A stretch of 64,000 nucleotides of DNA, taken from the NCBI GenBank assembly GCA_026645815.1, contig JAPKMR010000018.1:1-64000 (forward strand), in the 5' to 3' direction. The notes below the pieces were generated by a model. It worked only from the letters and a program-made list of their open reading frames with translations. It was not told where the DNA came from and ran no database searches. The DNA is from Anaerolineae bacterium (lineage in GTDB: Bacteria; Chloroflexota; Anaerolineae; B4-G1; SLSP01). Shown in pieces: positions 7,865 through 45,883 of the stretch; within the stretch, counting starts at the first letter, position 1, and each line of letters starts with the position of its first letter. The position numbers and the translations under genes were made by a program.

Positions 7865-9778
7865 TTACGGATTAACGAGCGTGATGTTGTACAGACAAGC
7901 GATACCCCAACCATCCGTGCAGTCGAGCGGCGGGACGGGCGGGTTGCTGCCGTCATCCTGGTTCGGGAAGTTGGTCCAGACCGTCTCGTTCACGGTGTGG
8001 AACGACTGTGGGCGGTACATGAGCGTGAAGGAGGGGATGTCGGTCAAGTAAATCTCGACCAGCTCGGTGTACATTTCCTTCAGTTTGGCTTCATCGGTCT
8101 CGCCAGGGATAGCGACGATCAGCTCATCCACGCGGGGGTTGGCATACTGACCCCAGTTGCCGCTCCAGTTGCTGGCCTGGCCAACCCACTCGGAGCTGAG
8201 CAAGTTGCGGATGCGTCCCCAGGGCATGGTGGGTCCAGCGCCGGCGCTCCACATCATGAAGATGTCGTAGCCTTCGGGTAGCGGGGCATCTGACTTGGTG
8301 ACGACCGTCTGGTACACGGACCATTCGGGGTAGTTGGTGGTGATGTCAACGCCGATCTTCTTGCCGGCGGCGGCCACAACCTCGATCGCGGCTTGCCAGT
8401 CAGACCAACCGTTGGGGCAGGTGGCAATGTAGCTGAGCTTCTGGCCATTGTACTCGCGCCAACCGTCGCCATCGCTATCCACGATGCCGGCCTCGTCCAA
8501 GAGCGCGTTGGCGCCCGCGATGTCATTTCCGGCCCACTGCAAGTCCTTGACGGCCTCTTGATCGTAGAGGGCTTGCTCACCGGGGGTGGGGTTCATGAGC
8601 GAGCGCGGAACCTGATCGAAGGTGGCGGATTGGTTGGTCATAGCGTTGGCAATGATGGTGGGGTAGTCAACCGCCATGGCAATGGCTTTGCGCACTGCAA
8701 TCTGATCCAAACCGTAGGAGTTGAGGTTGTAGAAGGCGGTCGGCAGGCTGGCGCCGATACCATAGGGCGCCTCGGGCAGGTAGGTGGAGATGGGGAGGCC
8801 GTAGCTTTCCCACAGCAGATTGACGTTGGAGTTGAACTGCTGGCTGACGTCAACCTCACCCTTAGCCAGCGCCACGGAACCAGCGGCATTATCCTTGTAG
8901 ATGATGTGCGCCAGGTACTTGGGTGCGGGCAGCTTGCCCCACATGCTGGCATCCTGTCCCCAGTAGTTGTCGTCCCGAATGAGGACAACTTTCGTGTCAT
9001 CGCTGAAGAACTTGGTGTAAGGGCCGGAGTAGGCGACATCCTCTGCGGGGTCTGCCTGCAACGCGGTGGCATCACCACCGGAGCGTTCTTCCAGCTTCTG
9101 GGTCCAGGCCTTCTGTGCAACGTAGTTGCTGCTCACGTAGGCGGCAACAGCCAGGGGGTTGAGCGCCTTCCCGTTCTCGCCTAACACGGCTTTGACCACG
9201 ACCGTCTGAGCGTCTTGGGCAACGATGTCCTGAATGTAGGGAGTGTTGCCGGCGCCGGTGCCCGTGTTGTATTTGACGTGGGTAGCCCAGGTGTAGGCGA
9301 CGTCTTCAGCGGTTACGGGGGTGCCATCGTTCCACTTGGCAGCGGGCTTGATCTTGAACGTAATCTCGGTCATGTCGGCGTTCCAAGCCCAGGGACCATC
9401 TGCCAGCAGCGGGTACATTTGCCCGTCGAGCATGTTGTACAGATACGGGGTCTCGAACATCGGGACGCGGGCATTATCCCCAGCAGAGATTGCCATGGCG
9501 TTGTTATTGCCGCTACCATAAGGATTCCAGCCAACAACGGTGCCCCACTGCTGACCATTGAAGTACAAGGTTTCGTTGCGGGGCAAAGCGCCTTCTTCAG
9601 GCTCAGGGGTAACAAAAACCTGTACCTCTTTGGTAACTTCGACGGTTTTGATGACTTCTTGAGTGACCACAACGGTCTTCTCGATGACCTCGGGTGTCGC
9701 GGTCGGGCCGCACGCCGAAAGCAGCATGGTGAGAACCAGCAAGGCGTTTAAGACTATTACATAGCGTTTCATGTCCAA
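7865..9778 (-). CDS. ABC transporter substrate-binding lipoprotein, family 5 (SBP_bac_5)
   Basis: Lipobox LLSACG, Val/Thr/Lys-rich linker after the lipobox, [16 protein letters not shown] motif. Confidence 0.92.
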
Positions 9779-9920
9779 ATGTCTCCTTCCTTTTGATTGT
9801 GTGAGGAAAAATTTACGGCTTAGATCCGGTTAAGAAAAGCATAGCATGAAATCTGTGAACTGGCAACCTCCTTTCATGTATGAACACATTTGTGTGGCAG
9901 TTCGTAATCGTTTTTTCTAC

Positions 9921-11015
9921 TTACCTGGTCCCTTCTGGGGACTTTGGTCGAGCAACAGACTCACGTGCCACCAGTTCCGTCTGAAGCAACATCGTGACTG
10001 CAGGCATACCTGGGTTGCGTGCTCGTTCCAGCAGTTGGCGCACTCCAAGACGCCCCATCAACACCTTATCCACATGCATCGTTGTCAGCGCTGGGCTGAT
10101 TCCGTGAATTAACGCCAGATTGTCAAAACCAATTACCGAAAGGTCTTCTGGTACCCGCAGGTCAAGCTCTCGTGCCGCCTTGAGCACGCCCAGGGCAATC
10201 TCATCATTGCAGGCAAAGATGGCGGTGATGCTGGCGGCGCGTTGAAGCATTTGGTGTGCCGCTTTACAGCCCGCTGCTTGATCAAGTGCTGATTCTTCGA
10301 TGAAGGTTTCGGTGATACCCGCGCGTCTCAGGGCTTCCAGGTATCCTGTGCGGCGTTCACTAACGCTAGGACAGTCTTCTGCTGGGCCGCTGATTAAGCC
10401 GATGTGCCGGTGCCCATTCTCGATCAAATAACGGGTAGCCATGAGCGCCCCGGTGAAATTATCCGTTAATACACGATCGCAGGTCTGACTGCCGGTCACA
10501 TAGCCATCTAGCATCACGATTGGGATGTTGTGCTGGCGTCTGATTGTATCGAGCGCGGTTTCGATAAAGGTGCCGCACAGAATCAGGCCATCAATGCGGG
10601 CTTCGCTCAGCATAATGGGCCAGTGTACAGGCCGGCTTTGTGAGTCTACCTCAATGCTGGAATACATCAGATGTAATCCCCGTGCGCGGCATTCGGCCTC
10701 GACACCCGATTGCACGTAGGCATAGAAGTGATTGACTGGTTCTTGATCGTCAAGGTTATGCTTGAGCAGTAGACCCACAACGGAGATAGGATACTCCTGG
10801 AGCAGGCTCAGGGTTTTGATGGGATAACCTAATTCATTTGCGGCTTCAATCACGCGCGTACGGGTGTCTGGGGAGACCCCGGGACGATTGTTCAGGGCTT
10901 GGGAAGCGGTTCCAATGGAAACCCCGGCTGTTTCTGCAACTGCGCGCAAAGTCACCGACACTGGTTGCTCCTGATGTGTCTGTTGAAAAAAGCGAATTTT
11001 TGTTGAACAGTTCAC
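9921..11015 (-). CDS. LacI-family transcriptional regulator
   Basis: HTH VTLRAVAETAGVSIGTASQALNNRPGVSPDTRTRVIEAANELGY followed by a periplasmic-binding-like sensor; start (GTG) uncertain and may lie downstream. Confidence 0.92.
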   Translation of the reverse strand: MNCSTKIRFFQQTHQEQPVSVTLRAVAETAGVSIGTASQALNNRPGVSPDTRTRVIEAANELGYPIKTLSLLQEYPISVVGLLLKHNLDDQEPVNHFYAYVQSGVEAECRARGLHLMYSSIEVDSQSRPVHWPIMLSEARIDGLILCGTFIETALDTIRRQHNIPIVMLDGYVTGSQTCDRVLTDNFTGALMATRYLIENGHRHIGLISGPAEDCPSVSERRTGYLEALRRAGITETFIEESALDQAAGCKAAHQMLQRAASITAIFACNDEIALGVLKAARELDLRVPEDLSVIGFDNLALIHGISPALTTMHVDKVLMGRLGVRQLLERARNPGMPAVTMLLQTELVARESVARPKSPEGTR

Positions 11016-13909: not shown

Positions 13910-16900
13910 ATGAAGATGAAACTCTGGAACCGGCTATTTAGCACAATCCTTTTGCTAGCGACGCTGGCAGCGTGTACGGGTGCACCGACGTCTACACCGG
14001 TGTCGCCGTCACCTACGGCGACACCGAGTGCGACCTCCACACCCTTGCCGCCCAAACCCGTGGTTCCTTATACACCTGTGCCTGAAGGAGAAATTGCTCC
14101 TGCTGTGATCTGGCGCAGTCCTCAGCGTGGTGAAACGCTGACGCCTGAGGCGGGCATTGAACTGGTTTTTGATCAGCCTATGGCGCGTGAGAGTGTCGGA
14201 CGGGCGCTTACGGTACAAACGGCGGCAGAATCGCCGGCGCTTGTAACCGGTGAGCTCACCTGGCGCGATGACCGTACTGCGGTCTTCAAGCCCGGCAAAG
14301 CCTTGGCGCGCAACGTGGCGTATGATGTGATCCTCACTCAGGATGCTACCTCTGCTACAGGCACCCCTTTGCGTGAGCCTCTGGTTTTCCGCTTTGCTAC
14401 AGCTGGCGCGTTGGAAGTCACTCAGGTCGTTCCCGCGCCTGGCACGATGGACGCCGAAACTGACATGCTCATCACGGTCATGTTCAACCGTCCTGTGGTG
14501 CCTTTGACCAGCTTGAAGCAGATGGAAAGTCTTCCCAATCCCCTGATTTTCGAACCGGCTGTAGTGGGTAAGGGTGAGTGGCTGAATACGTCCATTTACG
14601 TTTTCCGCCCGGAAAAACCCCTGGCGGGTGGACTTAGCTATCGGGTGACCGTTACCTCGGGCTTGCAGGACCTTTCTGGGGCGCTGTTGCTCGAGGATTA
14701 TAGCTGGAGTTTTACCACGCAACCGCCCGAAGTGGTGTGGACGTGGCCTGGCGATGGGGAGTCTCTGGTAGACATTCGTCGCCCTCTCCAGATCGAGTTC
14801 AACCAGCCTATCGAAGCCGCCTCTGCCCAACGCGCTTTTTCGCTCAAAGGGGGGAGTCTTCTGCGCACCGATGTGGCGGGCAGCTTCTCGGTGGTAGGGA
14901 ATACGCTCGTCTTCACGCCTACACGTGATTTGGACTTCGATACAACCTATACCGTCTCCATAGAGGCAGGGATCACTGGCGCCTCAGGCGGCGAGGGGAT
15001 GCGTCAGGCTTATACCTGGCAATTCACGACTGTGCCTCTGCCCCGGATTATCTCTACCAATCCTGCCGATGGCGAGCGCAATGTTCCGGCATACAGCCCC
15101 TTCCAGATCGTCTTCAACACGCGGATTGACCCCAAAACGGTCATGCCGAATCTCACGGTAACGCCACCGCTCTCGCCCACACAGGTGTACACGTATTTCT
15201 CGGAGTGGGATAATACCTTTACCCTCTACTTTGGGTCGCAGGCTTCTACCGATTACACGGTGGTGATCGGCAATGGTATTGCCGATCCTTACGGAAACAC
15301 CATTCCCCGAGGAGCTACGGTTCGCTTCCGGACCGCACCGCTCGAACCGAATTATCGTCTGTTGACGCCTGATTTCACAGCGACTTATGATGCAGCTCTC
15401 CCTGCGCAGGTCGCCATTGCGTATCTCAATCTCAACCGTGTGGACTTGCGCCTTTACCGTTTACCGGCAAGTGCGCTTCAGCAATCCTATTGGGATTGGC
15501 GTGAGAAGTTGCCTGGTGGCACTGACCTGTTGCGGGATTGGACTGTGACGCTTGAATCCCCGCTCAACAAACAGAGCTATACGGCTATTGACCTGGTTGA
15601 GATTCCGGGGGGCACACTTGCACCCGGCGCGTATTTGCTGGATGTGAATGCCCCAGAGCTGGCAGCTAACGAATGGCAGGCGCACCAGCAACATCTACTG
15701 ATCGTCTCTGATTACAACCTTACATTGAAGACCGGTGTTGATGAAGCCTTCATCTGGGCGGTGGATTTGGCGACGGGACAACCTGCCCCGGGCTTGAGCC
15801 TGGAACTGGTGGAAATTCAGGGGCGCAACCTGGGCACTCTGACGACCGATCAGGAAGGCATTGCCCGCATGGGGCTGTCGCAGAATCGCAACTCGATTCT
15901 TGCCATCAGTGAACAGCCTTTTGCCGCTGTTGCTGAGGGCTGGGCGCGGGGCATCAGCCCATGGGACTTCGGCATGGGCGAGGGCGTTTGGGAACAGAAG
16001 GTGCGCACCTATATCTACACCGACCGCCCAATTTATCGCCCTGGACAGAACGTGAACTTCAAGGGTGTGCTACGTACAGAGGATGATGCCGCATTTGGCT
16101 TGCCCAATGTGGGTGCAGTGAACGTCATCATCCGTGATGCCGCATGGCAGGAAATCTACCGCGAGCGTTTGCCGGTGAGCCAGCTCGGCGCCTTTGTGGG
16201 CACGCTCGCTCTGGATGCCAACGCCGGTTTGGGGAACTACGTCATCGCCGTTGAATTGAACGATCAATACTATGAAACGTATTTCCAGGTCGCTGCCTAC
16301 CGCGCCCCCGAATTCGAAATTCTGGTTGAGCCGGCAGTGGCTGAGCTGCAACGCGGGCAAAGCACGCAGGCGACCATCACCGCGCGCTACTTCTTCGGTG
16401 GACCGCTTGCTAATACTGCTGTGACCTGGAACGTGCTCGCGGAGCGCTATACTTTCAAGCCCTCTTGGGGCGGACGCTACAGCTTCAGCGATGTGGATGA
16501 CCCCTGGATTTGCTTCGATTGCTGGTGGCGTTGGGAACCTGAACTGCCCGCCGAGGCGATTCTGAGCGGCAGTGGCGTGACCGATGCCAACGGTGAACTG
16601 CGCATTACGTTGGATGGCGCGGCGCTTGATGCAGCCTTACCCTATCTCGCATCGCGTATCACGATCGAAGCTCTGGCTACCGGTCCGGATAATCAGGAAA
16701 TCGCTGGTCGAAGTGGCGTGGTTGTCCACCCTGGTTCCTACTACATCGGACTGGCGCCCAGCAGTTACGTCGGGGTGGCAGAAAAGGAAAACAGCATTGA
16801 CCTGGTGGCAGTGGATTGGACCAGCAAGCGTCTTGCCAATCAGACACTCAAGGTAGCTCTATATCGTCGTGAGTGGGAGAATATCTTCATCGCCAACGAG

Positions 16901-19900
16901 ATGGGCGGCGGATACTGGTCGTGGGAGACACAGGATGTCTTCGTGAGCGAGACCACGGTCACTACCGACGCCCGTGGCGAAGCGGTGGCGCGCTTTACTC
17001 CGCCCAAGGGAGGCTCCTATCATGCTATTGCTACGCCGGCGAATCCTACCCCCGACACCGAACGCATTCGCTCCTCCGTCTTCGTTTGGGTGACAGGCAA
17101 GGATAATATCAGCTGGCGGCGCGAAAATCACGACCGTCTCACCCTGATCAGTGATAAGAGCTCTTACAAAGTTGGCGAGACTGCGGAAATTCTCATTCCC
17201 TCGCCTTTCACTGAGCCGCACTGGGCTTTGGTTACGGTGGAGCGGGCGGGTATCCGTCGCCATGAACTGCTCCGCATGGAAACCAACAGCGCCATTTACC
17301 GTCTGCCCATCCAGGAAGCGGATATTCCGAATATTTATGTTTCAGTGGTTCTGGTTCAGGGACGGAGCGGTGCAGCGACCGCCGGCGGTGCGGCTGAGTT
17401 CAAGATGGGCTTGCTCCCGTTGGATGTGAGTCTGGAGCCTAAGACGCTTATGTTGACCGTGGAACCTTCGGTGCCACAGGCTGAGCCGGGCGAAGAGGTG
17501 ACCTATGCTTTCACGGCAACCGGCCCTGATGGGCGCCCTGTTGCCGGGGCAGAACTCTCTTTCGACGTGGTAGATAAAGCCGTTTTGAGCCTGCAACCGC
17601 GCACGACCGACATCCTGAGCGGTTTCTACGCCCGCCGCGCTTTGCAGGTCAACACTTATAGCGGTCTGAGCCTCTCTGCTAATCGCTATCTCAAGGAGTT
17701 GGCGGCTGATTTGGGTCTAGATCTCGGAACCCATGATGAGATGCAGCGCGCCAGCAATGCCTATGGCATGGGCGGCGGCGGCGATATGGCTGCGGGCGCC
17801 GTGCCCGCACCATCTGCGACGATGGCACCCATGCTAGAAGTTGCAAAAGAGATGGAGGTGGTTACCGATGCAGCATTCTCTATGGAAGGCATCACGGTCC
17901 GCGAGGAATTTGCGGATACTGCCGCGTGGGAATCTTTGCTCGTCACAGATAGCGACGGTCGCGCACAATTTACCCTGACCCTGCCGGACAATCTCACCAC
18001 CTGGACCGCGCACGTTGTGGGGCACACTGCCGCGACGGTCGTTGGTGAGGGGCAGAGTGAGCTTGTGGTCGCCAAACCCCTCATGGTGCGCCCGGTTGCG
18101 CCACGCTTCTTTGTGGTGGATGACCGTGTTCAGTTGGCTGCGAATGTCAGCAACAACACGGATCAATCCTTACAGGTTGAGGTGGCGCTCAGTGCTGAAG
18201 GTATTGGTATCAGTCAGGAGACCCCCTCCGTGCAGACAGTTACGATTCCTGCGCGCAGTGAGAGCAAGGTGACCTGGTGGGTCACCGTGACCGATGTTCC
18301 CAATGCGCAGCTGACCTTTGCCGCGCGTGCGGGTGAGTATACCGATGCCAGCAAGCCTCGGCTTACTACCGGACCGGATGGCTCTTTGTTAGTGTTGCGC
18401 TATACCGCTCCCGATATCGTGGGCACCGCGGGTCAACTGACTGAAGCTGGCAGCGTGGCCGAAGGTGTGGCTCTGCCGCCACAGTTCGATGACCGCCGTG
18501 GGCAGCTCACGGTGCAGCTGGATCCTAGCCTTGCCGCCGGGATGCAGGATGGGCTTGACTACCTGGAGCATTTCGAATACGAATGTACCGAGCAGACCGT
18601 GAGCCGTTTCCTTCCCAACCTGCTCACCTATCGTGCGCTCAAATCCCTGGGCTTGCAGAATGCGGAGCTCGAGGCGCGTCTACCTGCGCTCATTGATGAG
18701 GGCCTGGCGAAGCTTGCCAAACAGCAACGTTCCGATGGGGGCTGGGGCTGGTGGTATGATACTGAGAAGGGTGAGAGCAATCCGCATGTGAGTGCCTACG
18801 TCGTCTTTGCGCTGCTCAAGGCACAGCAGTCCGATATCAATGTTGACGGGATGATGTTGCAGCGGGGATTGGAATATCTCAAGACGCAGCTCAAGTCGAT
18901 TCGGCAGGTAGAGCATTATCGCGCTGCAAATATGCAGGCATGGTTGCTCTATGTGTTGGCCGAAGCCGGGCAGGCGCCGCAGGATATGCTCGACAATCTC
19001 TTCGAAAACCGCGAGAAACTTAGCCACTACGCCCGCGCTTACCTTGCGCAGGCATTCTGGTTGGCGAATCCCAATGATGCCCGGCTACAAGTGCTGCTTT
19101 CCGACCTGAACAATGCCGCCATCCTCAGCGCTACGGGAGCGCACTGGGAAGAGGCAAACTACGACTGGTGGTCTATGAACACCGACACGCGCTCTACCGC
19201 CATCATTCTCGACACGCTGACGAAGCTGGATCCGGAGAACGCGCTCAACCCCAATATCGTCCGCTGGCTCATGGTAGCACGGAAGACCGGCATCTGGGAA
19301 ACCACACAGGAAACCGCCTGGGCGCTCATTGCTCTCACCGATTGGATGATGGCAACGGGTGAGCTTAACGCTAACTATGATTACGGCGTCTTCTTGAACG
19401 ACGGCGAACTCGCTACCGCGAGCGTCACCCGCGAGACCGTGCGCCAGAGCACCAAAATCACTGTGCCCATCGCCGACTTACTCGCGGATGCCCTCAATGT
19501 ATTGGGCATTGCTCGCACGGCGGGTCCGGGACGTCTCTACTATACCGCGCACCTCGAAGTTTACCAACCGGTAGAGGCGTTGGAGCCTGCCGATCGGGGC
19601 TTCAGCATTCAGCGGCGTTACACGCTGGCTTCTTGCGCTGCTGAGAAGATCAAGGCGGGTGGCAGTGTTCTGGATTGCCCGGAGGTTCGCGAGGTGAAGC
19701 TGGGCGACGTGATTCGCGTGGATTTGACCATCATCACCCCGCACGACCGCTATTATGTGGTAGTGGAGGATCCGCTCCCGGCAGGCGGTGAGGCGGTGGA
19801 CACCGGGCTGGCGACCACGAGCCTGCTGGCAATGGAGCCTAATCTCTCCCGGCCCAGCTCGCGTTGGTGGTGGTGGTGGAACTGGTACAGCCGCAGCGAA

Positions 19901-20083
19901 CTGCGGGATGAAAAGGTGGTGCTCTTTGCCGATGTGTTGGGTGCGGGCACCTATGAATATAGCTATACCTTCCGCGCCACGCTCCCGGGCGAATACCGCG
20001 TGATTCCCACCGTGGCGAAGGAATTCTACTTCCCGGAGGTCTTCGGTCGTAGCGATGGGCGGTTGCTGACTATCGCGGAATAA
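13910..20083 (+). CDS. Alpha-2-macroglobulin family lipoprotein with Ig-like (Big_5) N-terminal domains
   Basis: 2057 aa; lipobox LATLAACTG; thioester motif YECTEQ; GGWGWW and MG/TED-like segments; C-terminal AxEFYFPEVFGRSDG. Confidence 0.92.
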   Translation: MKMKLWNRLFSTILLLATLAACTGAPTSTPVSPSPTATPSATSTPLPPKPVVPYTPVPEGEIAPAVIWRSPQRGETLTPEAGIELVFDQPMARESVGRALTVQTAAESPALVTGELTWRDDRTAVFKPGKALARNVAYDVILTQDATSATGTPLREPLVFRFATAGALEVTQVVPAPGTMDAETDMLITVMFNRPVVPLTSLKQMESLPNPLIFEPAVVGKGEWLNTSIYVFRPEKPLAGGLSYRVTVTSGLQDLSGALLLEDYSWSFTTQPPEVVWTWPGDGESLVDIRRPLQIEFNQPIEAASAQRAFSLKGGSLLRTDVAGSFSVVGNTLVFTPTRDLDFDTTYTVSIEAGITGASGGEGMRQAYTWQFTTVPLPRIISTNPADGERNVPAYSPFQIVFNTRIDPKTVMPNLTVTPPLSPTQVYTYFSEWDNTFTLYFGSQASTDYTVVIGNGIADPYGNTIPRGATVRFRTAPLEPNYRLLTPDFTATYDAALPAQVAIAYLNLNRVDLRLYRLPASALQQSYWDWREKLPGGTDLLRDWTVTLESPLNKQSYTAIDLVEIPGGTLAPGAYLLDVNAPELAANEWQAHQQHLLIVSDYNLTLKTGVDEAFIWAVDLATGQPAPGLSLELVEIQGRNLGTLTTDQEGIARMGLSQNRNSILAISEQPFAAVAEGWARGISPWDFGMGEGVWEQKVRTYIYTDRPIYRPGQNVNFKGVLRTEDDAAFGLPNVGAVNVIIRDAAWQEIYRERLPVSQLGAFVGTLALDANAGLGNYVIAVELNDQYYETYFQVAAYRAPEFEILVEPAVAELQRGQSTQATITARYFFGGPLANTAVTWNVLAERYTFKPSWGGRYSFSDVDDPWICFDCWWRWEPELPAEAILSGSGVTDANGELRITLDGAALDAALPYLASRITIEALATGPDNQEIAGRSGVVVHPGSYYIGLAPSSYVGVAEKENSIDLVAVDWTSKRLANQTLKVALYRREWENIFIANEMGGGYWSWETQDVFVSETTVTTDARGEAVARFTPPKGGSYHAIATPANPTPDTERIRSSVFVWVTGKDNISWRRENHDRLTLISDKSSYKVGETAEILIPSPFTEPHWALVTVERAGIRRHELLRMETNSAIYRLPIQEADIPNIYVSVVLVQGRSGAATAGGAAEFKMGLLPLDVSLEPKTLMLTVEPSVPQAEPGEEVTYAFTATGPDGRPVAGAELSFDVVDKAVLSLQPRTTDILSGFYARRALQVNTYSGLSLSANRYLKELAADLGLDLGTHDEMQRASNAYGMGGGGDMAAGAVPAPSATMAPMLEVAKEMEVVTDAAFSMEGITVREEFADTAAWESLLVTDSDGRAQFTLTLPDNLTTWTAHVVGHTAATVVGEGQSELVVAKPLMVRPVAPRFFVVDDRVQLAANVSNNTDQSLQVEVALSAEGIGISQETPSVQTVTIPARSESKVTWWVTVTDVPNAQLTFAARAGEYTDASKPRLTTGPDGSLLVLRYTAPDIVGTAGQLTEAGSVAEGVALPPQFDDRRGQLTVQLDPSLAAGMQDGLDYLEHFEYECTEQTVSRFLPNLLTYRALKSLGLQNAELEARLPALIDEGLAKLAKQQRSDGGWGWWYDTEKGESNPHVSAYVVFALLKAQQSDINVDGMMLQRGLEYLKTQLKSIRQVEHYRAANMQAWLLYVLAEAGQAPQDMLDNLFENREKLSHYARAYLAQAFWLANPNDARLQVLLSDLNNAAILSATGAHWEEANYDWWSMNTDTRSTAIILDTLTKLDPENALNPNIVRWLMVARKTGIWETTQETAWALIALTDWMMATGELNANYDYGVFLNDGELATASVTRETVRQSTKITVPIADLLADALNVLGIARTAGPGRLYYTAHLEVYQPVEALEPADRGFSIQRRYTLASCAAEKIKAGGSVLDCPEVREVKLGDVIRVDLTIITPHDRYYVVVEDPLPAGGEAVDTGLATTSLLAMEPNLSRPSSRWWWWWNWYSRSELRDEKVVLFADVLGAGTYEYSYTFRATLPGEYRVIPTVAKEFYFPEVFGRSDGRLLTIAE

Positions 20084-20183: not shown

Positions 20184-21374
20184 TCAGGTTGCACTTTCTC
20201 CATTCCCCACGGGTGTTGGAATCCGCAGCAAGGCGATGACCAACCCAATCGCCATCACCGCCGCGCCGCTGAAGTAGGGATACCTGATGTTGATATCGAA
20301 AGCGAACCCTGCCCAAATGGGACCGATGACGCGCCCAAGGTTCATGAAGGAATTGCACAGGCCCATGATGGTTCCTTGCCCCGAGGTAGTGCGTTGTGAG
20401 GCGAGCGACATGATGACGGTGCGTAGCAGCGTCTTGGAGAGGATGAAGACGCCGGTTGCCGCCAGCACTCCGGGGTAGCTCTTCATCAACATAAGCAGGA
20501 TGAAGCCCGCGGAGCTGGACGCCAACGAGACTTTGATGATCGTGCCTTCACCCCACCACCGGGTGAGAGGTCTGGTGAGGAGCGCTTTCCCCAATGTCGA
20601 GGTCAATCCCACAACTGCCAGGATGGCGCCCACGCGTTCGGGTCCGTAGCCCAGCACTTGTGCTGCATACAACCCAAAGACCGATTCGAAATTGCTCAAC
20701 CCAAAGCTGACCAGAAACAACAGGAACAGAAACAAGCCCACTGGCCCAAAGAGCGCCTGCCACAGCATCGCGAACTGCAATGTTTTGACTTTGCCTGCTC
20801 TTTGCCTTTCCGTCGCGGTCAACGATTCCGGCAACAATAGCGCACCGAGCACCAATGCCACAATTGACAACCCTGCCGCGACGAAAAACGGCAGCGAAAT
20901 GGAGACCTCTCCGAGCCAACCGCCCAGCGCCGGTCCCAGAATCGCGCCCAGACCCATCGCCGCGCCCAGCATCCCAATACCCCAACCGCGCTCTTTTGCG
21001 GGGGTGTTATCGCTGATATAAGCCAGTGCAGTTGCGGCGACTGCCGATGAGAGTATCCCCGATAGCGCACGCGAGGCGAATAGCATCCAGATTTCTGTGG
21101 ATAAGCCGAACAACAACGACGAGAGCGCATAGCCCAAAACGCCGAGCAGCAGAATCGGTTTGCGCCCGGTGCGATCGGAGATGCTGCCCCAGACCGGTCC
21201 GCACACGAGCTCCAGCAGGGCGGAAGTCGCCATCAACAGTCCCAACTCCCGCCCGCTAGCGCCCAGCGCTTCGATATAGAAAGGGAACAGTGGAATGATC
21301 AAGCCGTAGCCTAACATTACTACAATCAGCGTGAAGGCCAGAATGGCGATATTCTTGCGGTTGCTCCTATCCAT
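20184..21374 (-). CDS. MFS transporter, DHA1 drug-efflux-like
   Basis: 396 aa; GPVWGSISDRTGRKPILL motif A, 12 TM-like segments. Confidence 0.87.
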   Translation of the reverse strand: MDRSNRKNIAILAFTLIVVMLGYGLIIPLFPFYIEALGASGRELGLLMATSALLELVCGPVWGSISDRTGRKPILLLGVLGYALSSLLFGLSTEIWMLFASRALSGILSSAVAATALAYISDNTPAKERGWGIGMLGAAMGLGAILGPALGGWLGEVSISLPFFVAAGLSIVALVLGALLLPESLTATERQRAGKVKTLQFAMLWQALFGPVGLFLFLLFLVSFGLSNFESVFGLYAAQVLGYGPERVGAILAVVGLTSTLGKALLTRPLTRWWGEGTIIKVSLASSSAGFILLMLMKSYPGVLAATGVFILSKTLLRTVIMSLASQRTTSGQGTIMGLCNSFMNLGRVIGPIWAGFAFDINIRYPYFSGAAVMAIGLVIALLRIPTPVGNGESAT

Positions 21375-21458: not shown

Positions 21459-24400
21459 CTAAGAGTTTCCCATCAATTCCACGGTCCCTTCACCGCCATC
21501 TACCGTGATCATTTGCCCGTCTTTGATGCGTCGGGTAGCCACACCCGTCCCCATCACTGCCGGGATGCCGTACTCGCGGGCGACGATGCTGCCATGGGAG
21601 AGGGGTCCTCCAATATCGGTGACGACCGCAGCTGCCATCGCAAAGAGTGGCGTCCAGGCTGGCGTGGTGGTCCCCGCGACCAGAACGCATCCCGGTCGCA
21701 TCCGGTTGAAGTCCTCGGGACCTTGAAGCACACAGGCAGGCGCCGTCACCTTACCTGTGCTCGCGCCAATCCCTTTGAGCACGTCGCCTTCCTGACTGGC
21801 TTCCGATGCTGGTGTGAAGGATTCCATATTGATGCCCAGGTATTTCTTCCGGGGGGGCAACGTGGGCGGTGGGACGACACGGGCAAGTGTTGAGTGATGG
21901 GCTTTGCGTTGTGCAACCTCTTCGAGCAGTGCCCGAGGGGCATTGTCGTTTGCCAGCGCCGTCATGGATGCCTCCATCTCGTCCGCTTTCAACCAGAATA
22001 TATCCTCGGCTTCGGCAATGGCGTTCGCCTGCATGCAGCGCCGCCCCAACTCACGCAGCAGCCCGCGCAGCGCCGGATAACCCAGCCCAATATCGGCAAG
22101 GGCATCTTCGCGTACTTGTGCCATGGCTTGCCCCAGCTTGAGAGTCTTTTCGAAAGCCCAGCGACGTAGCCCCTTGAGTCGGGCGCGCGCCTCTTCGACA
22201 GCCTGCTCGCGTCTTTCTGCAGTCGCTTTTTGGCGTTCATGGGGATTGATGCCGCCACCGCGCAGGTACATCTTGATGGTTTCTAGCATCGGTGTGGGAT
22301 CATCCGCCGGCAGCAACCTGGCAAAATCCAGATCATAGATGAGGTGACCATAGGCATCCAGGTATGTTTTAAGTTGCTCGCAGAAGTCGTCCCAACCGGG
22401 GAGTATGGGGTAGGCTGCAGGGAGCAAGTGAGCAACCAGATCAGTGGTGGGGGTGCTGAGGAAGTGCTCGACCAGCTCAGGTTGGCTGCGTATCCACTCT
22501 GCCAGGTCATAGAGCGATTTCTCAGCCTGAATGGGGGTGCTGTCATAACCCATCAAAAACACAGAAGCCTCTGGATCGCCTGTGCGGCGGAGCAGCTTGT
22601 TGTAGACGTTGGTGAACAACATCTCGGCGCCTGCTGATGCACCCGTCGTTGCCACCAGCAACGCTGAGAAGTGTAACATCGCCGCAGTGTTGAGCTCCTG
22701 GATTCCAGCCCACAGCTCATCCAAAGACAATGTTCCCGGCGCCCGGCTTTGCCAGCGGGCGACCGCTGCCACATACTGCGGGCGGATTTTGTCCCGCCAG
22801 AGTGGTATCGCTTCACGTAGCATGCGCGGCATAGCAGTCATCATTCGGCTGAGAATCCACCACCACTCTTGCAACGTATACCCGGCATTGATATAGACAT
22901 AGCTGTTGAGGGTCACGATATAATCTGGCAGTATTGGCTCAGAACGGGTCAAAGGGCGCAGCACCTCTTTGACCCCAACGCGGGCAATCGTTGGGATAGC
23001 CAGGGTCTCAAATAATGGGCTGACTGGATTCGGCATCAGGTCGGCGATGCCGGTATGCATATATTGGCTCTTGGGGTTGGGAAGAGTCCATTCGATGGCA
23101 TGTGCATCCTTGTGGAGCGTGATGCGCCCGGTGTCGCCATCCACAGTGATGGTTTGCCCATCGCGGATGCGTTGTGTGGCAACGCCGACACCGGTGACTG
23201 CGGGCAAGCCGTATTCACGGGCGACGATGCCGCCATGCGAAAGTGCGCCGCCCAGGTCGGTGACAACCCCTCCAGCGAGCGTGAAAAGCGGCGTCCATGC
23301 GGGTGTGGTGATGTGCGCCACCAGAATGTCCCCAGCTTGGAAGTGTGCAGTCTCACCGGGTGTGGCGAGGATTCGTGCAATGCCTGTGACTTTCCCGGGG
23401 CTTACGCCTAGCCCTGTAAGGGTGTTGCCCTCGATTTGCGGTGCAACTTCGGGTACAGGGGTGACGTACTTCCACCACCAGACGGGCTTGCCGCCTTCCG
23501 GCAGGTGCGTCGGTGGTTGAAGCCCCTGCCAGCTCTCCCAATCTGCGCGTCGTTGGGCCACGCTCATCAGCAGGGGTGTCGCCGTTTGCCTTGCTTCGAG
23601 TGTCTCGACTATCGCCCCAATTTCCTCTGCGGTCAGGAAGTAGATGTCATCCGGTGCGCTCAAGGCTTCAGCGGCGACCAGACGGCGCCCCAATTCTCGA
23701 AGATCGCGGCGCATCGCGCGCCAGGCAAGCCCAAACTCGAACATGGCATTCTCACGTTCGCGCGCCCCCTCGCGGGCTTGCGCCAGCAATTGTGTCAACT
23801 TCCTGAATTTGCGCGAGGTGAGGCGCGCTTCCAGTGCCGCGACTGCTGCTTCGCGTTCAGCCATCATCCGTGCCAGGCGTGTCGAGGGCGCTTCCTGCCC
23901 CTGCAGGTAGCCGCGCAGCGCCAGCAAAATCGCCTGCGGATCGTCTGAGAGCGTCGGCATCAGTGGATCAATCGAGGAAAACTGGTAACCGTATGCATCC
24001 AGATGGGCCTGGAATTGCGTCAGGAAGGTCGCGCCACCTGGATGGGCGGCGCAGGCAGTCAAAGCTTCGCCATCCGTTTGGGTGAACAGGTCTGCCAACC
24101 CCAGGTCGCGCGCGGATTGCGCCAGTGCATAGATGGAACATTCCGCTTCATAGGGGCGCATCTCGTGACCCCGCAGATACACTTCAGGAGCGGGATCACC
24201 GGGACGTTGTACCCGGCGGTAGAATTTGCTGAAATCGCCCTCGCGTTGCAGCACCGCACGAATAATCATACCTACTGCATTCCAGTAATCGGTACCGGCG
24301 GCGAGCAAATCCTGTGCCCGTTGCCAGAGCTCGCGTGGCGTCAATGTCTCAGGTGCGGATTGGCTCAAGCGTGCCACCCGTTGCCGGTAAGTTGCCAGCA

Positions 24401-25655
24401 TTTCGGGCCACGTTTCCAACGAGCGTGCATGATCGCGCAGGGCGCAGTAGATTCCAAAGAGGTGTTTGATCTTTGGGGTAGGGCGCATGCGGGCGAAAGC
24501 ATACCCATTGCTGAAGTGCATCAATGGCCAAACCATCAAATCGTGAATTCCAAAGCGTTTTGCTAACGCATAGTTGGCGTCTTCGAACGCCGGTGCAACC
24601 CACGTGATGCCCAACGGGCTGACGGGTTCGGTGACGAACTCCATGATTCCCCCACCGCGCATCCAGATATCGCCTGCCGGCGCCTCCCAGGTCACCGGTG
24701 TGGGAGGCAGCGCCGTGATCGGTCGCGCCTGGACGATGAAGCCACGACCCTCTGCCCAGCACCATTCGATGTCTTGTGGCGCACCGTAGAGTGCCTCGAT
24801 TTCGCGTGCCAACCGCGCCAGCTCTGTGATTTGGGTCGCGTCTAGCACCTGCACCTGACGTTGGTCAGCGGCAACGGGGCGTTCTTCCGTTCCCAGCTCT
24901 GTGCGAATCGTCATCACTTCCTTATCCGCCACATTACAATCTAGAAGCTGCCCGGTGGTCTTAGCTACTGTATAGGTGTCCGGCGTCACCAACCCGCCGA
25001 CAATCGCTTCTCCCAAACCCCACGCGGCGTTGATGACCAGTTGCTCCCGTCGCCCATTGAGGGGATTCGCCGTGAACAGAATGCCTGCCGCTTCTGCGAA
25101 GATGAGTTGCTGAACGACAACCGCCAGGCTCACCGTGTCAGGATCAATGCCCCGTCGCATCCGGTAGCCGATGGCACGCGCCGTCCACAGGCTGGACCAG
25201 CAGCGGCGGACGGCGTCCAGCACCGCATCCACACCCCGAATGTTGAGATAGGTGTCCTGCTGCCCGGCGAAGGAGGCGTCTGGTAAATCCTCAGCGGTAG
25301 CTGAAGAACGGATGGCAACGGAGACCGGAGTGGCAGACAGGGATAGATAAGCACCCCTGATGGCACCGGCAATGCTTGAGGGAATGGGAGCTTCGATAAA
25401 CAGCGCGCGGATTTGATTCGAGGCGGCTTCGAGGTGCGCTGGTTGCGCCACATCCACATCCCGCAGTGCCGCGAGAATGCGCGGTTGCAGGGCGTTCTCT
25501 GCGACAAATTGCTGATAGGCAGCTGTTGTGATGTGGAAGCCGTCGGGAACGGGCAATCCGGCGTTCACCAGTTTTGCCAGCGAAGCGCCTTTGCCACCGA
25601 CCGTGTTTAGCGTGGCGTGTTCATCCGCCAGGGAAAGAATGATGGTTGCTTCCAT
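21459..25655 (-). CDS. PEP synthase/rifampin phosphotransferase-like enzyme with tandemly duplicated C-terminal module
   Basis: 1398 aa; PPDK_N-type ATP-grasp (GGKGASLAKLVNAGLPVPDGF, SSATAEDLPDASFAGQQDT); two PEP-utilizer mobile domains, GGALSHGGIVAREYGLPAV and GGPLSHGSIVAREYGIPAV, each after a helical RIF-domain-like segment. Confidence 0.88.
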   Translation of the reverse strand: MEATIILSLADEHATLNTVGGKGASLAKLVNAGLPVPDGFHITTAAYQQFVAENALQPRILAALRDVDVAQPAHLEAASNQIRALFIEAPIPSSIAGAIRGAYLSLSATPVSVAIRSSATAEDLPDASFAGQQDTYLNIRGVDAVLDAVRRCWSSLWTARAIGYRMRRGIDPDTVSLAVVVQQLIFAEAAGILFTANPLNGRREQLVINAAWGLGEAIVGGLVTPDTYTVAKTTGQLLDCNVADKEVMTIRTELGTEERPVAADQRQVQVLDATQITELARLAREIEALYGAPQDIEWCWAEGRGFIVQARPITALPPTPVTWEAPAGDIWMRGGGIMEFVTEPVSPLGITWVAPAFEDANYALAKRFGIHDLMVWPLMHFSNGYAFARMRPTPKIKHLFGIYCALRDHARSLETWPEMLATYRQRVARLSQSAPETLTPRELWQRAQDLLAAGTDYWNAVGMIIRAVLQREGDFSKFYRRVQRPGDPAPEVYLRGHEMRPYEAECSIYALAQSARDLGLADLFTQTDGEALTACAAHPGGATFLTQFQAHLDAYGYQFSSIDPLMPTLSDDPQAILLALRGYLQGQEAPSTRLARMMAEREAAVAALEARLTSRKFRKLTQLLAQAREGARERENAMFEFGLAWRAMRRDLRELGRRLVAAEALSAPDDIYFLTAEEIGAIVETLEARQTATPLLMSVAQRRADWESWQGLQPPTHLPEGGKPVWWWKYVTPVPEVAPQIEGNTLTGLGVSPGKVTGIARILATPGETAHFQAGDILVAHITTPAWTPLFTLAGGVVTDLGGALSHGGIVAREYGLPAVTGVGVATQRIRDGQTITVDGDTGRITLHKDAHAIEWTLPNPKSQYMHTGIADLMPNPVSPLFETLAIPTIARVGVKEVLRPLTRSEPILPDYIVTLNSYVYINAGYTLQEWWWILSRMMTAMPRMLREAIPLWRDKIRPQYVAAVARWQSRAPGTLSLDELWAGIQELNTAAMLHFSALLVATTGASAGAEMLFTNVYNKLLRRTGDPEASVFLMGYDSTPIQAEKSLYDLAEWIRSQPELVEHFLSTPTTDLVAHLLPAAYPILPGWDDFCEQLKTYLDAYGHLIYDLDFARLLPADDPTPMLETIKMYLRGGGINPHERQKATAERREQAVEEARARLKGLRRWAFEKTLKLGQAMAQVREDALADIGLGYPALRGLLRELGRRCMQANAIAEAEDIFWLKADEMEASMTALANDNAPRALLEEVAQRKAHHSTLARVVPPPTLPPRKKYLGINMESFTPASEASQEGDVLKGIGASTGKVTAPACVLQGPEDFNRMRPGCVLVAGTTTPAWTPLFAMAAAVVTDIGGPLSHGSIVAREYGIPAVMGTGVATRRIKDGQMITVDGGEGTVELMGNS

Positions 25656-43697: not shown

Positions 43698-43873
43698 AGA
43701 GGGTCGTTGTTGCGTTTTCCAATTCACTACAACGGGCGGCGGCTGAAGCTGTGCTTTTGGAATTTGCACCCCCTTTCTGTTTACTTTCATCACTGTGCCC
43801 ATTCCTTTATTTGTTCTATACTATTTGACAACTGAACGCGGTGGAATGACTATATCCAGTTAAGGAGAGTGAG

Positions 43874-45829
43874 ATGTTGAAGTTGAAGCACGGCAGTGAT
43901 CTTCTGATGGAGATTGGCGGGATCAAGACGGTGGAGGAGGCACAGGCGTTGTTTCGGTTGCGTTGTGATGCGCAGACGCAGGCGCGCCTCGCCGGTATCC
44001 GCACTGCGGATGCTTTGATTAAGATTGCCAACGCCATTTCCATGATGGTCCCTGATGACGTGTTTGTCAGCACGGGTTCGGCAGAGGATTTGCAGGCGGT
44101 GCGCGAATTGAGTCTTAATAAAGGCGAGGAAAAAGCGCTGCCTATGCCCGGGCACACGATCCATTTTGACCTGCCGGAAGAGCAAGGGCGTGTGGTGGAT
44201 AAGACACTCTATATCGTCAACCCTGATGAGGAGACCAGTGTACTGGCGAAAAGCATCCTCCGTGACCAGGGGTTGGATTATGTCCGGCAGACTATGACCG
44301 GGATTGCCAAGGGCAAGACCCTGTTGATTGGTTTCTTCAACCGGGGACCGGTCGGCGCGCAGGCAGCGATTCCCGCCATTGAGATGACCACCTCCACCTA
44401 CGTGATGCACTCGGCAAACATCCTCTATCGCAGTATCTATCAGCAGTTTGATGCCGAGGCGGCGCGCGCAGGCGAGTTCTTCACCAACGTACACGGTGAG
44501 GGCGCCAATCGCCCGGAGGATTTCCCCAACATGCGTGTTTTCATGGACCGCAGTTGGTTGACCACTTATGCAATGCTGTGCACCTATGCAGGCAATACCT
44601 TGTTGCTTAAGAAAGGCAATCACCGTTTCGCCGTGGACCTGGCGACTTATTACCGCCGTGAGCGCGAGCTCTCTGAGCACATGTTCATTACGGGCCTGAT
44701 TGGCCCTGGTGGACGCAGGACCTTCTTTGCGGGCGCGGCGCCTTCGGGTTGTGGCAAGACGACCACGGCTATGGTTGGCGATGATTTCATCGGCGATGAT
44801 CTGGCACAAATCTGGATTGCGCCTGATGGTACCTTGCGCGCTGTTAACCCGGAGAAAGGCATCTTCGGTATCATTCAGGACGTCAACCCTGAAGGAGACC
44901 CTCTGCTCATCGAGGCGTTGAGTGAACCGGGTGTGGAGGTTATCTGGTCGAACGTGCTGATTACCCCAGACGGGGAACCGCGTTGGGTTGGTGATGGCAA
45001 ACCTGCTCCCGAAAAGGGAATCAATTACACGGGTACATGGTGGGCTGGTAAAGTAGATGCGGCGGGCAAACCTATCCCCATTTCTAATCCCAACGCGCGC
45101 TGCACCCTGGCGAGTAACACGATTGGCAACTATAATGAAACTCTGGCTGATGACCCCGCGGGTGTGCCGGTCAGGGTCATCACCTACAGCGGGCGCGATA
45201 GCGATACGATGCCGCCAGTCTGGGTGGCAAAGAATCCCAATCACGGTGTCGTGATTGGGGCTTCGATTCTCTCGGCAGCTACTGCGACCGAGGTTGGAGC
45301 GCAGGGAGTGCGCCGCCAGCCCTGGGCGAACGAGCCCTTCATCCCCGGTCCGCTCGCGGAGTATATGGAAGCACAGTTCGCTTTCTTCAACTCCCCACGG
45401 TTGCAGCCCAAGCCCGTGATGGCGGGATTGAACTACTTCCTCACCCAGGGGGCGCGCGGCGGTGAGGGTAATAAACTGCTCGGCGAGAAGCGTGACGTTA
45501 AGGTCTGGTTGGGTTGGCTGGAACTGTACGCCAATGGCGATGTTGCTGCCATCGAAACTCCCATTGGCTACATCCCCCAGTATGAGGACCTTCAGGGATT
45601 GTTTGCCCGAATCGGCAAAGCCTATCCCCGCGAGTTGTACGATAAACAGTTCGCTTTCTATGTGGATAACATTCTGGCGCGTATTTCGCTGCAGGAAGAG
45701 GCTTATCGCAAGGAGACCGGCGTGCCAGAAGCCCTGTTTGAGGTTTACCGGGAGCAACGCCAGGGTTTGGAGGCGCTTAAAGCTGCGTATGGTTCCATTG
45801 TTACCGTGGAACAACTCAGCCTTCTCTGA
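43874..45829 (+). CDS. pckG: Phosphoenolpyruvate carboxykinase (GTP)
   Basis: 651 aa; FFNRGPVG, AAPSGCGKTTTAM, FGIIQDVNPEGDP, PISNPNARCTLASNTIGNYN motifs. Confidence 0.95.
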   Translation: MLKLKHGSDLLMEIGGIKTVEEAQALFRLRCDAQTQARLAGIRTADALIKIANAISMMVPDDVFVSTGSAEDLQAVRELSLNKGEEKALPMPGHTIHFDLPEEQGRVVDKTLYIVNPDEETSVLAKSILRDQGLDYVRQTMTGIAKGKTLLIGFFNRGPVGAQAAIPAIEMTTSTYVMHSANILYRSIYQQFDAEAARAGEFFTNVHGEGANRPEDFPNMRVFMDRSWLTTYAMLCTYAGNTLLLKKGNHRFAVDLATYYRRERELSEHMFITGLIGPGGRRTFFAGAAPSGCGKTTTAMVGDDFIGDDLAQIWIAPDGTLRAVNPEKGIFGIIQDVNPEGDPLLIEALSEPGVEVIWSNVLITPDGEPRWVGDGKPAPEKGINYTGTWWAGKVDAAGKPIPISNPNARCTLASNTIGNYNETLADDPAGVPVRVITYSGRDSDTMPPVWVAKNPNHGVVIGASILSAATATEVGAQGVRRQPWANEPFIPGPLAEYMEAQFAFFNSPRLQPKPVMAGLNYFLTQGARGGEGNKLLGEKRDVKVWLGWLELYANGDVAAIETPIGYIPQYEDLQGLFARIGKAYPRELYDKQFAFYVDNILARISLQEEAYRKETGVPEALFEVYREQRQGLEALKAAYGSIVTVEQLSLL

Positions 45830-45883
45830 ATCTCTCACCCGGCAACGTAACCCAGTCCTCTAGGGCTGATCCGGAGACAGCCT

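Follow-up and report, generated by a model that had tools for sequence, protein, structure and literature searches.

A putative small-molecule dikinase with one ATP-grasp domain and two acceptor modules of separate origin in an Anaerolineae bacterium

Enzymes of the rifampin phosphotransferase (RPH) type are described as a large family of small-molecule kinases, most of which is still unexplored. The stretch of 64,000 nucleotides of Anaerolineae DNA analysed here, which is referred to as the window, encodes a protein with domains of this family, whose single chain carries two acceptor modules behind one ATP-grasp domain, and this raises the question of what a second module is for and where it came from. 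The preliminary description of the locus had read the protein as one PPDK-type ATP-grasp domain followed by two units of a helical region and a swivelling His domain, and had proposed a domain search, structure prediction and a survey of the architecture as checks. This layout is borne out, with open reading frame (ORF), strand, coordinates and length exact (Table 1): the Pfam search gave one PPDK_N domain at residues 17-316 and then two PEP-utilizers stretches, and no Pfam model matched the helical parts of the modules. By its domains the protein belongs to the RPH-type small-molecule dikinase superfamily, with the acceptor module present twice. The first module (M1, residues 317-853) is homologous to the second (M2, residues 854-1398), with 39% identity over 440 aa (E 2e-77). 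The identity is 58% over the swivel and 16% over the N-terminal arm of the substrate domain, and the His cores that had been called near-identical are thus only similar.

Table 1 Coordinates of the double enzyme gene, its domains and catalytic residues, and the two neighbouring genes in the window.
Feature	Position	Strand	Remarks
Complete ORF, ATP-grasp + M1 + M2 (including stop codon)	21459..25655	-	1398 aa, no internal stops
ATP-grasp (PPDK_N) domain, residues 1-316	24708..25655	-	Pfam E 1.2e-104; RPH-Lm chain 258 bits
M1 helical substrate domain, residues 317-740	23436..24707	-	AlphaFold2 model with RPH-like fold
M1 R634-E635, counterpart of RPH Arg666-Glu667	23751..23756	-	
M1 swivel His domain, residues 741-853	23097..23435	-	first Pfam PEP-utilizers stretch
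M1 swivel H807, counterpart of RPH His825	23235..23237	-	invariant in alignment A2
M2 helical substrate domain, residues 854-1287	21795..23096	-	AlphaFold2 model with RPH-like fold
M2 R1182-E1183, counterpart of RPH Arg666-Glu667	22107..22112	-	
M2 swivel His domain, residues 1288-1398, and stop codon	21459..21794	-	second Pfam PEP-utilizers stretch
M2 swivel H1354, counterpart of RPH His825	21594..21596	-	invariant in alignment A4
Downstream MFS exporter, 396 aa, NorA/TetA-like (DHA1 type)	20184..21374	-	closest PDB match NorA, E 8e-51
Upstream MalT/LuxR-type regulator, 955 aa	26156..29023	-	TPR_MalT and GerE domains

Both modules carry the complete acceptor site of RPH-type dikinases. H807 and H1354 lie within the swivel motifs TDLGGALSHGGIVAREYG and TDIGGPLSHGSIVAREYG, and the Arg-Glu pairs R634-E635 and R1182-E1183 are kept as well, at positions where Ala mutants of RPH-Lm (Arg666/Glu667) lose rifampin modification and retain the ATP half-reaction (PMC4844700). 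The second module, whose His might have been lost, has therefore retained it together with its Arg-Glu pair, and the idea that one ATP-grasp domain serves two His swivels is supported. The same in-frame protein is found in two congeneric species at 91% identity, which rules out a misassembly. Pairwise dN/dS values among the congeners (Nei-Gojobori, own script) were 0.11-0.14 in the ATP-grasp domain. In M1 they were 0.12-0.17 (helical part) and 0.06-0.10 (swivel), in M2 0.11-0.17 and 0.10-0.17, respectively. From this purifying selection (0.06-0.17 in M1 and M2) we conclude that neither module is decaying. AlphaFold2 models, which were built from alignments of the collected sequences and in which M1 and M2 were modelled separately because their joint alignment (A3) placed L038 and L171, two double proteins described below, out of register, predict an RPH-like fold for both modules. 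The model of residues 1-851 (ATP-grasp and M1) reached a pLDDT of 87.4 and a pTM of 0.68, the model of residues 852-1398 (M2) 90.8 and 0.89, respectively, and mobile domains may be the cause of the lower pTM of the former. The best PDB matches for both models were the six full-length RPH structures (TM by query 0.51-0.70).

The origin of the two modules was addressed with a module tree of 65 rows, in which relatives are designated by locus (L) and genomes by G numbers. M2 of the window groups with the one-module enzyme of L117 (99/91), and M1 of the window is located on a separate branch with a fragment from L127 (100/99). Two further double proteins combine other modules: in L171, a locus of the same class, M1 is paired with L173 (100/100) and M2 with L175 (100/99), and in L038 (Anaerolineales UBA5797) M1 pairs with L130 (100/100), with M2 joining the clade of L171-M2 and L175 (97/85). 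One clade for all M1s or for all M2s of the double proteins, i.e. groups defined by module position in the chain, was rejected in AU tests (p 3e-44 and 1.9e-41, respectively). Since M1 and M2 are not sisters, the module tree and the AU tests reject a tandem duplication, and the module is not duplicated in the simple sense of the preliminary description; instead, the window protein has been assembled from two separate lineages. Judging from the tree and the AU tests, the double form goes back to at least two and probably three assemblies from different parts, of which the M2 step could be common to L038 and L171. The ATP-grasp tree was poorly resolved, with the domain of L038 as sister to that of L172 (100/99). 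As the L172 module adjoins the L038/L171 M2 clade in the module tree, this placement fits an order of assembly in which M2 was already present and M1 was inserted between it and the ATP-grasp domain. In the window protein, M2 is preceded by a stretch (IEWTLPNPKSQYMHTG) similar to the linker that follows the ATP-grasp domain in the one-module enzyme of L117 (VEWKVPRPKGQYMRG), which indicates that the module boundaries match. The apparent stand-alone M1 of L127 proved to be half a module: its 546-aa ORF (L127:4485-6122) consists of part of a short-chain dehydrogenase and the C-terminal part of an M1-like module, joined mid-domain, and is either a product of chimeric assembly or genuinely rearranged. 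It was therefore left out as evidence for a system acting in trans.

Among the relatives, modules are also encoded by genes of their own. In L117, L118 and L172 a stand-alone module (493 aa, at least 526 aa and 550 aa, respectively) is encoded by a second gene, which lies behind the gene for an ATP-grasp domain plus module and adjoins or overlaps it. These stand-alone modules form one clade with L129 from a congener's contig (99/82, module tree), the sister of which is a Clostridia protein. In L181 an ATP-grasp gene adjoins an M2-type module gene, so that ATP-grasp domain and swivel reside on separate proteins. An open frame of 1430 aa in G325, considered as a further in-frame double, is really two genes of 858 and 550 aa (L172). 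On contig C160 of the window's own genome, the gene for a stand-alone module precedes an ATP-grasp gene (L131:7364-10007), and this split pair resembles two-component dikinases such as HpeHI/PpsAB. To estimate frequency, the junction between the M1 His domain and M2 was used as query, which strongly diverged doubles would escape. Matches spanning this junction were present in three of the 48 genomes of the order, all within the genus of the window. Of 396 genomes sampled from the class, G000, G002 and G399 had such a match, and of 400 sampled from the phylum, G000 and G399. Phyla other than Chloroflexota were covered through a scan of genome contigs for two peptide patterns, with one double (L038) among the 80 matches listed, and through a plasmid search. 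The one suspicious plasmid hit, from Natrinema (98% query coverage), proved to be neighbouring enzymes and not a double: both L203:2257-7216 and L202:3294-10171 contain two neighbouring RPH-like enzymes, the second split into two reading frames, with a TetR-type regulator beside the pair in L203. Genes for Rce1-like CAAX proteases are located near RPH-like enzymes in L038 (two, 8160-9979) and L172 (one, 1846-2691), the enzymes with the sister ATP-grasp domains. From the survey we conclude that the double architecture is real, intact and, by the junction query, rare but recurrent with other module pairs; in the open-access literature we found no description of it.

The double gene is located between a MalT/LuxR-type regulator gene and a gene for an MFS protein, in the order regulator, enzyme, MFS. 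Both neighbours score below the cut-offs of curated models, i.e. 183 bits for the MFS protein against the Tet(A/B/C) model (cut-off 475) and 470 bits for the regulator against the MalT model (cut-off 537). In 13 other loci (L120, L121, L124-L127, L171-L175, L179, L186), an MFS gene with 46-94% identity at the protein level lies near the enzyme or module gene and on the same strand, and the regulator is kept upstream in six (L117, L121, L124, L125, L127, L179). Such an MFS at 30% identity or more was found in none of the 79 RPH-type control loci among the matches listed in the named-genome scan. Since these controls are mostly from Bacillota and the relatives were picked by similarity, the MFS link is to be read as an association and not as a rate. 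L038 has no such MFS within 6 kb. Taken from the neighbours, the conserved exporter and regulator point to a role in detoxification. Elsewhere in the window, positions 13910-20083 (+) encode a bacterial alpha-2-macroglobulin of 2057 aa with four N-terminal Ig-like Big_5 repeats, and two long ORFs of 662 and 651 aa overlap on opposite strands (43850-45838, -, and 43874-45829, +), of which the minus-strand ORF is without Pfam match.

We consider it probable that the protein is an RPH-superfamily dikinase of small molecules, that its single ATP-grasp domain feeds two acceptor modules which differ from each other, probably for two substrates, and that it acts together with an exporter. The ATP-grasp domain would phosphorylate either H807 or H1354 and, as in RPH, turn ATP into AMP and phosphate. 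The charged swivel would then deliver the phosphate to the helical pocket of its own module, where the Arg-Glu pair would position the transfer to a hydroxylated compound bound there. Most likely, the pockets of M1 and M2 would serve different substrates, or different positions on one compound, and together with the NorA/TetA-like exporter and the MalT-type regulator this could result in inactivation plus export of unwanted compounds. The proposal of two substrates is based on the divergence between M1 and M2, which is strongest in the arm that in RPH contains part of the rifampin site (PMC4844700); as read from the sequences, this divergence indicates a different pocket and not in itself a different substrate. 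That both swivels could reach the single ATP-grasp domain is plausible by analogy, since two-component dikinases charge a separate swivel protein, which makes a second acceptor on the same ATP-grasp domain mechanically conceivable.

Of the other explanations, successive phosphorylation of one compound at two positions, one per module, fits all observations behind the main model as well as the presence of one regulator and one exporter for the gene. However, M2-type one-module enzymes occur in the same regulator/exporter setting (L121, L179), from which it follows that a second step is not generally needed, and we regard this explanation as unlikely. It is rather improbable that both modules modify the same position of the same substrate and that the second copy raises throughput: M1 and M2 are alike in overall fold and catalytic set, but they stem from different lineages with little in common in the substrate arm, and a benefit of dosage would more simply yield a recent tandem copy. 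The preliminary description had offered dual substrates or a relay, and only the former gains from the intact catalytic sets, the diverged arms and the separate lineages. In a relay, one swivel His would take the phosphate from ATP and hand it to the second, and only one module would modify a substrate; two carrier His domains are indeed present within one chain, and transfer between His residues has a precedent in the sugar phosphotransferase system, the Enzyme I of which shares the swivel fold. Nevertheless, the Arg-Glu acceptor pair is kept in both modules, the combination of modules varies among independent doubles, and the relatives of M2 are complete, ordinary one-module enzymes that need no relay, which leaves this reading very unlikely. 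There is hardly any likelihood that the protein is a PigC/RedH-like synthetase or ligase, in which phosphoryl transfer activates a substrate for condensation and the second module handles the partner, since the scores of 551 bits for the PigC and 533 bits for the RedH model are far under the cut-offs (1300 and 1350), the similarity is common to the whole superfamily, and no biosynthetic cluster is located in the immediate neighbourhood. An artefact of assembly or sequencing, or a dead module, is effectively refuted, because the protein is in frame in three congeneric species, L171 and L038 are doubles with other modules, and both modules are under purifying selection, even though the assemblies of this genome and of many relatives are fragmented and L127 holds a chimeric ORF.

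Returning to a dikinase with two acceptor modules, we tentatively extend this model to a mix-and-match system, in which one ATP-grasp domain might charge two or more interchangeable modules, encoded in one chain or in adjacent genes. If true, this would widen the range of compounds that one operon of regulator, enzyme and exporter can inactivate and expel. Diverged modules on one ATP-grasp domain, assembled repeatedly, provide a test of the swivel module as an interchangeable specificity cassette, and the conserved exporter suggests a place to seek substrates.

Among known enzymes, RPH-Lm (PDB 5FBS/5FBT/5FBU, 5HV1-5HV3; PMC4844700) has the same order of ATP-grasp, helical and C-terminal swivel His domain and shares with the window protein the swivel His, the Arg-Glu pair and the ATP-site residues Lys22, Arg, Thr and Glu, but it has one acceptor module instead of two. 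RPH Gln336/Gln337 and Lys670 are replaced by M338-E339 and M638 in M1 and by A871-D872 and L1186 in M2, which makes rifampin doubtful as a substrate. The score against the curated RPH model RIF_Ptrans_rph (NF041857) is 605.7 bits at a cut-off of 999, so that the name rifampin phosphotransferase holds for the fold and the probable mechanism, but not for these residues or the model. PEP synthase and PPDK have the ATP-grasp and swivel His domains in common with the window protein, in which no PEP/pyruvate-binding C-terminal domain was found with Pfam up to E 1; the curated PEP_synth model gave 510 bits, below its cut-off of 740. In HpeHI, CreHI and PpsAB the swivel and pocket are on a protein of their own, which is charged by the ATP-grasp protein, and the two form no stable complex (PMC12167813). 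As proposed for the window protein, one ATP-grasp unit charges a swivel with an RPH-like substrate domain, but for each of these systems one acceptor protein is described, whereas the window protein is a single ORF with two different acceptor modules and thus not of the two-component kind. YvkC, the flavonoid phosphate synthetase of B. subtilis, is described as a structural homologue of RPH that phosphorylates a broad range of flavonoids (PMC13099321); it is a one-module protein as described and may give a hint at the type of substrate. The window protein is therefore a two-module variation within the known RPH-type family.
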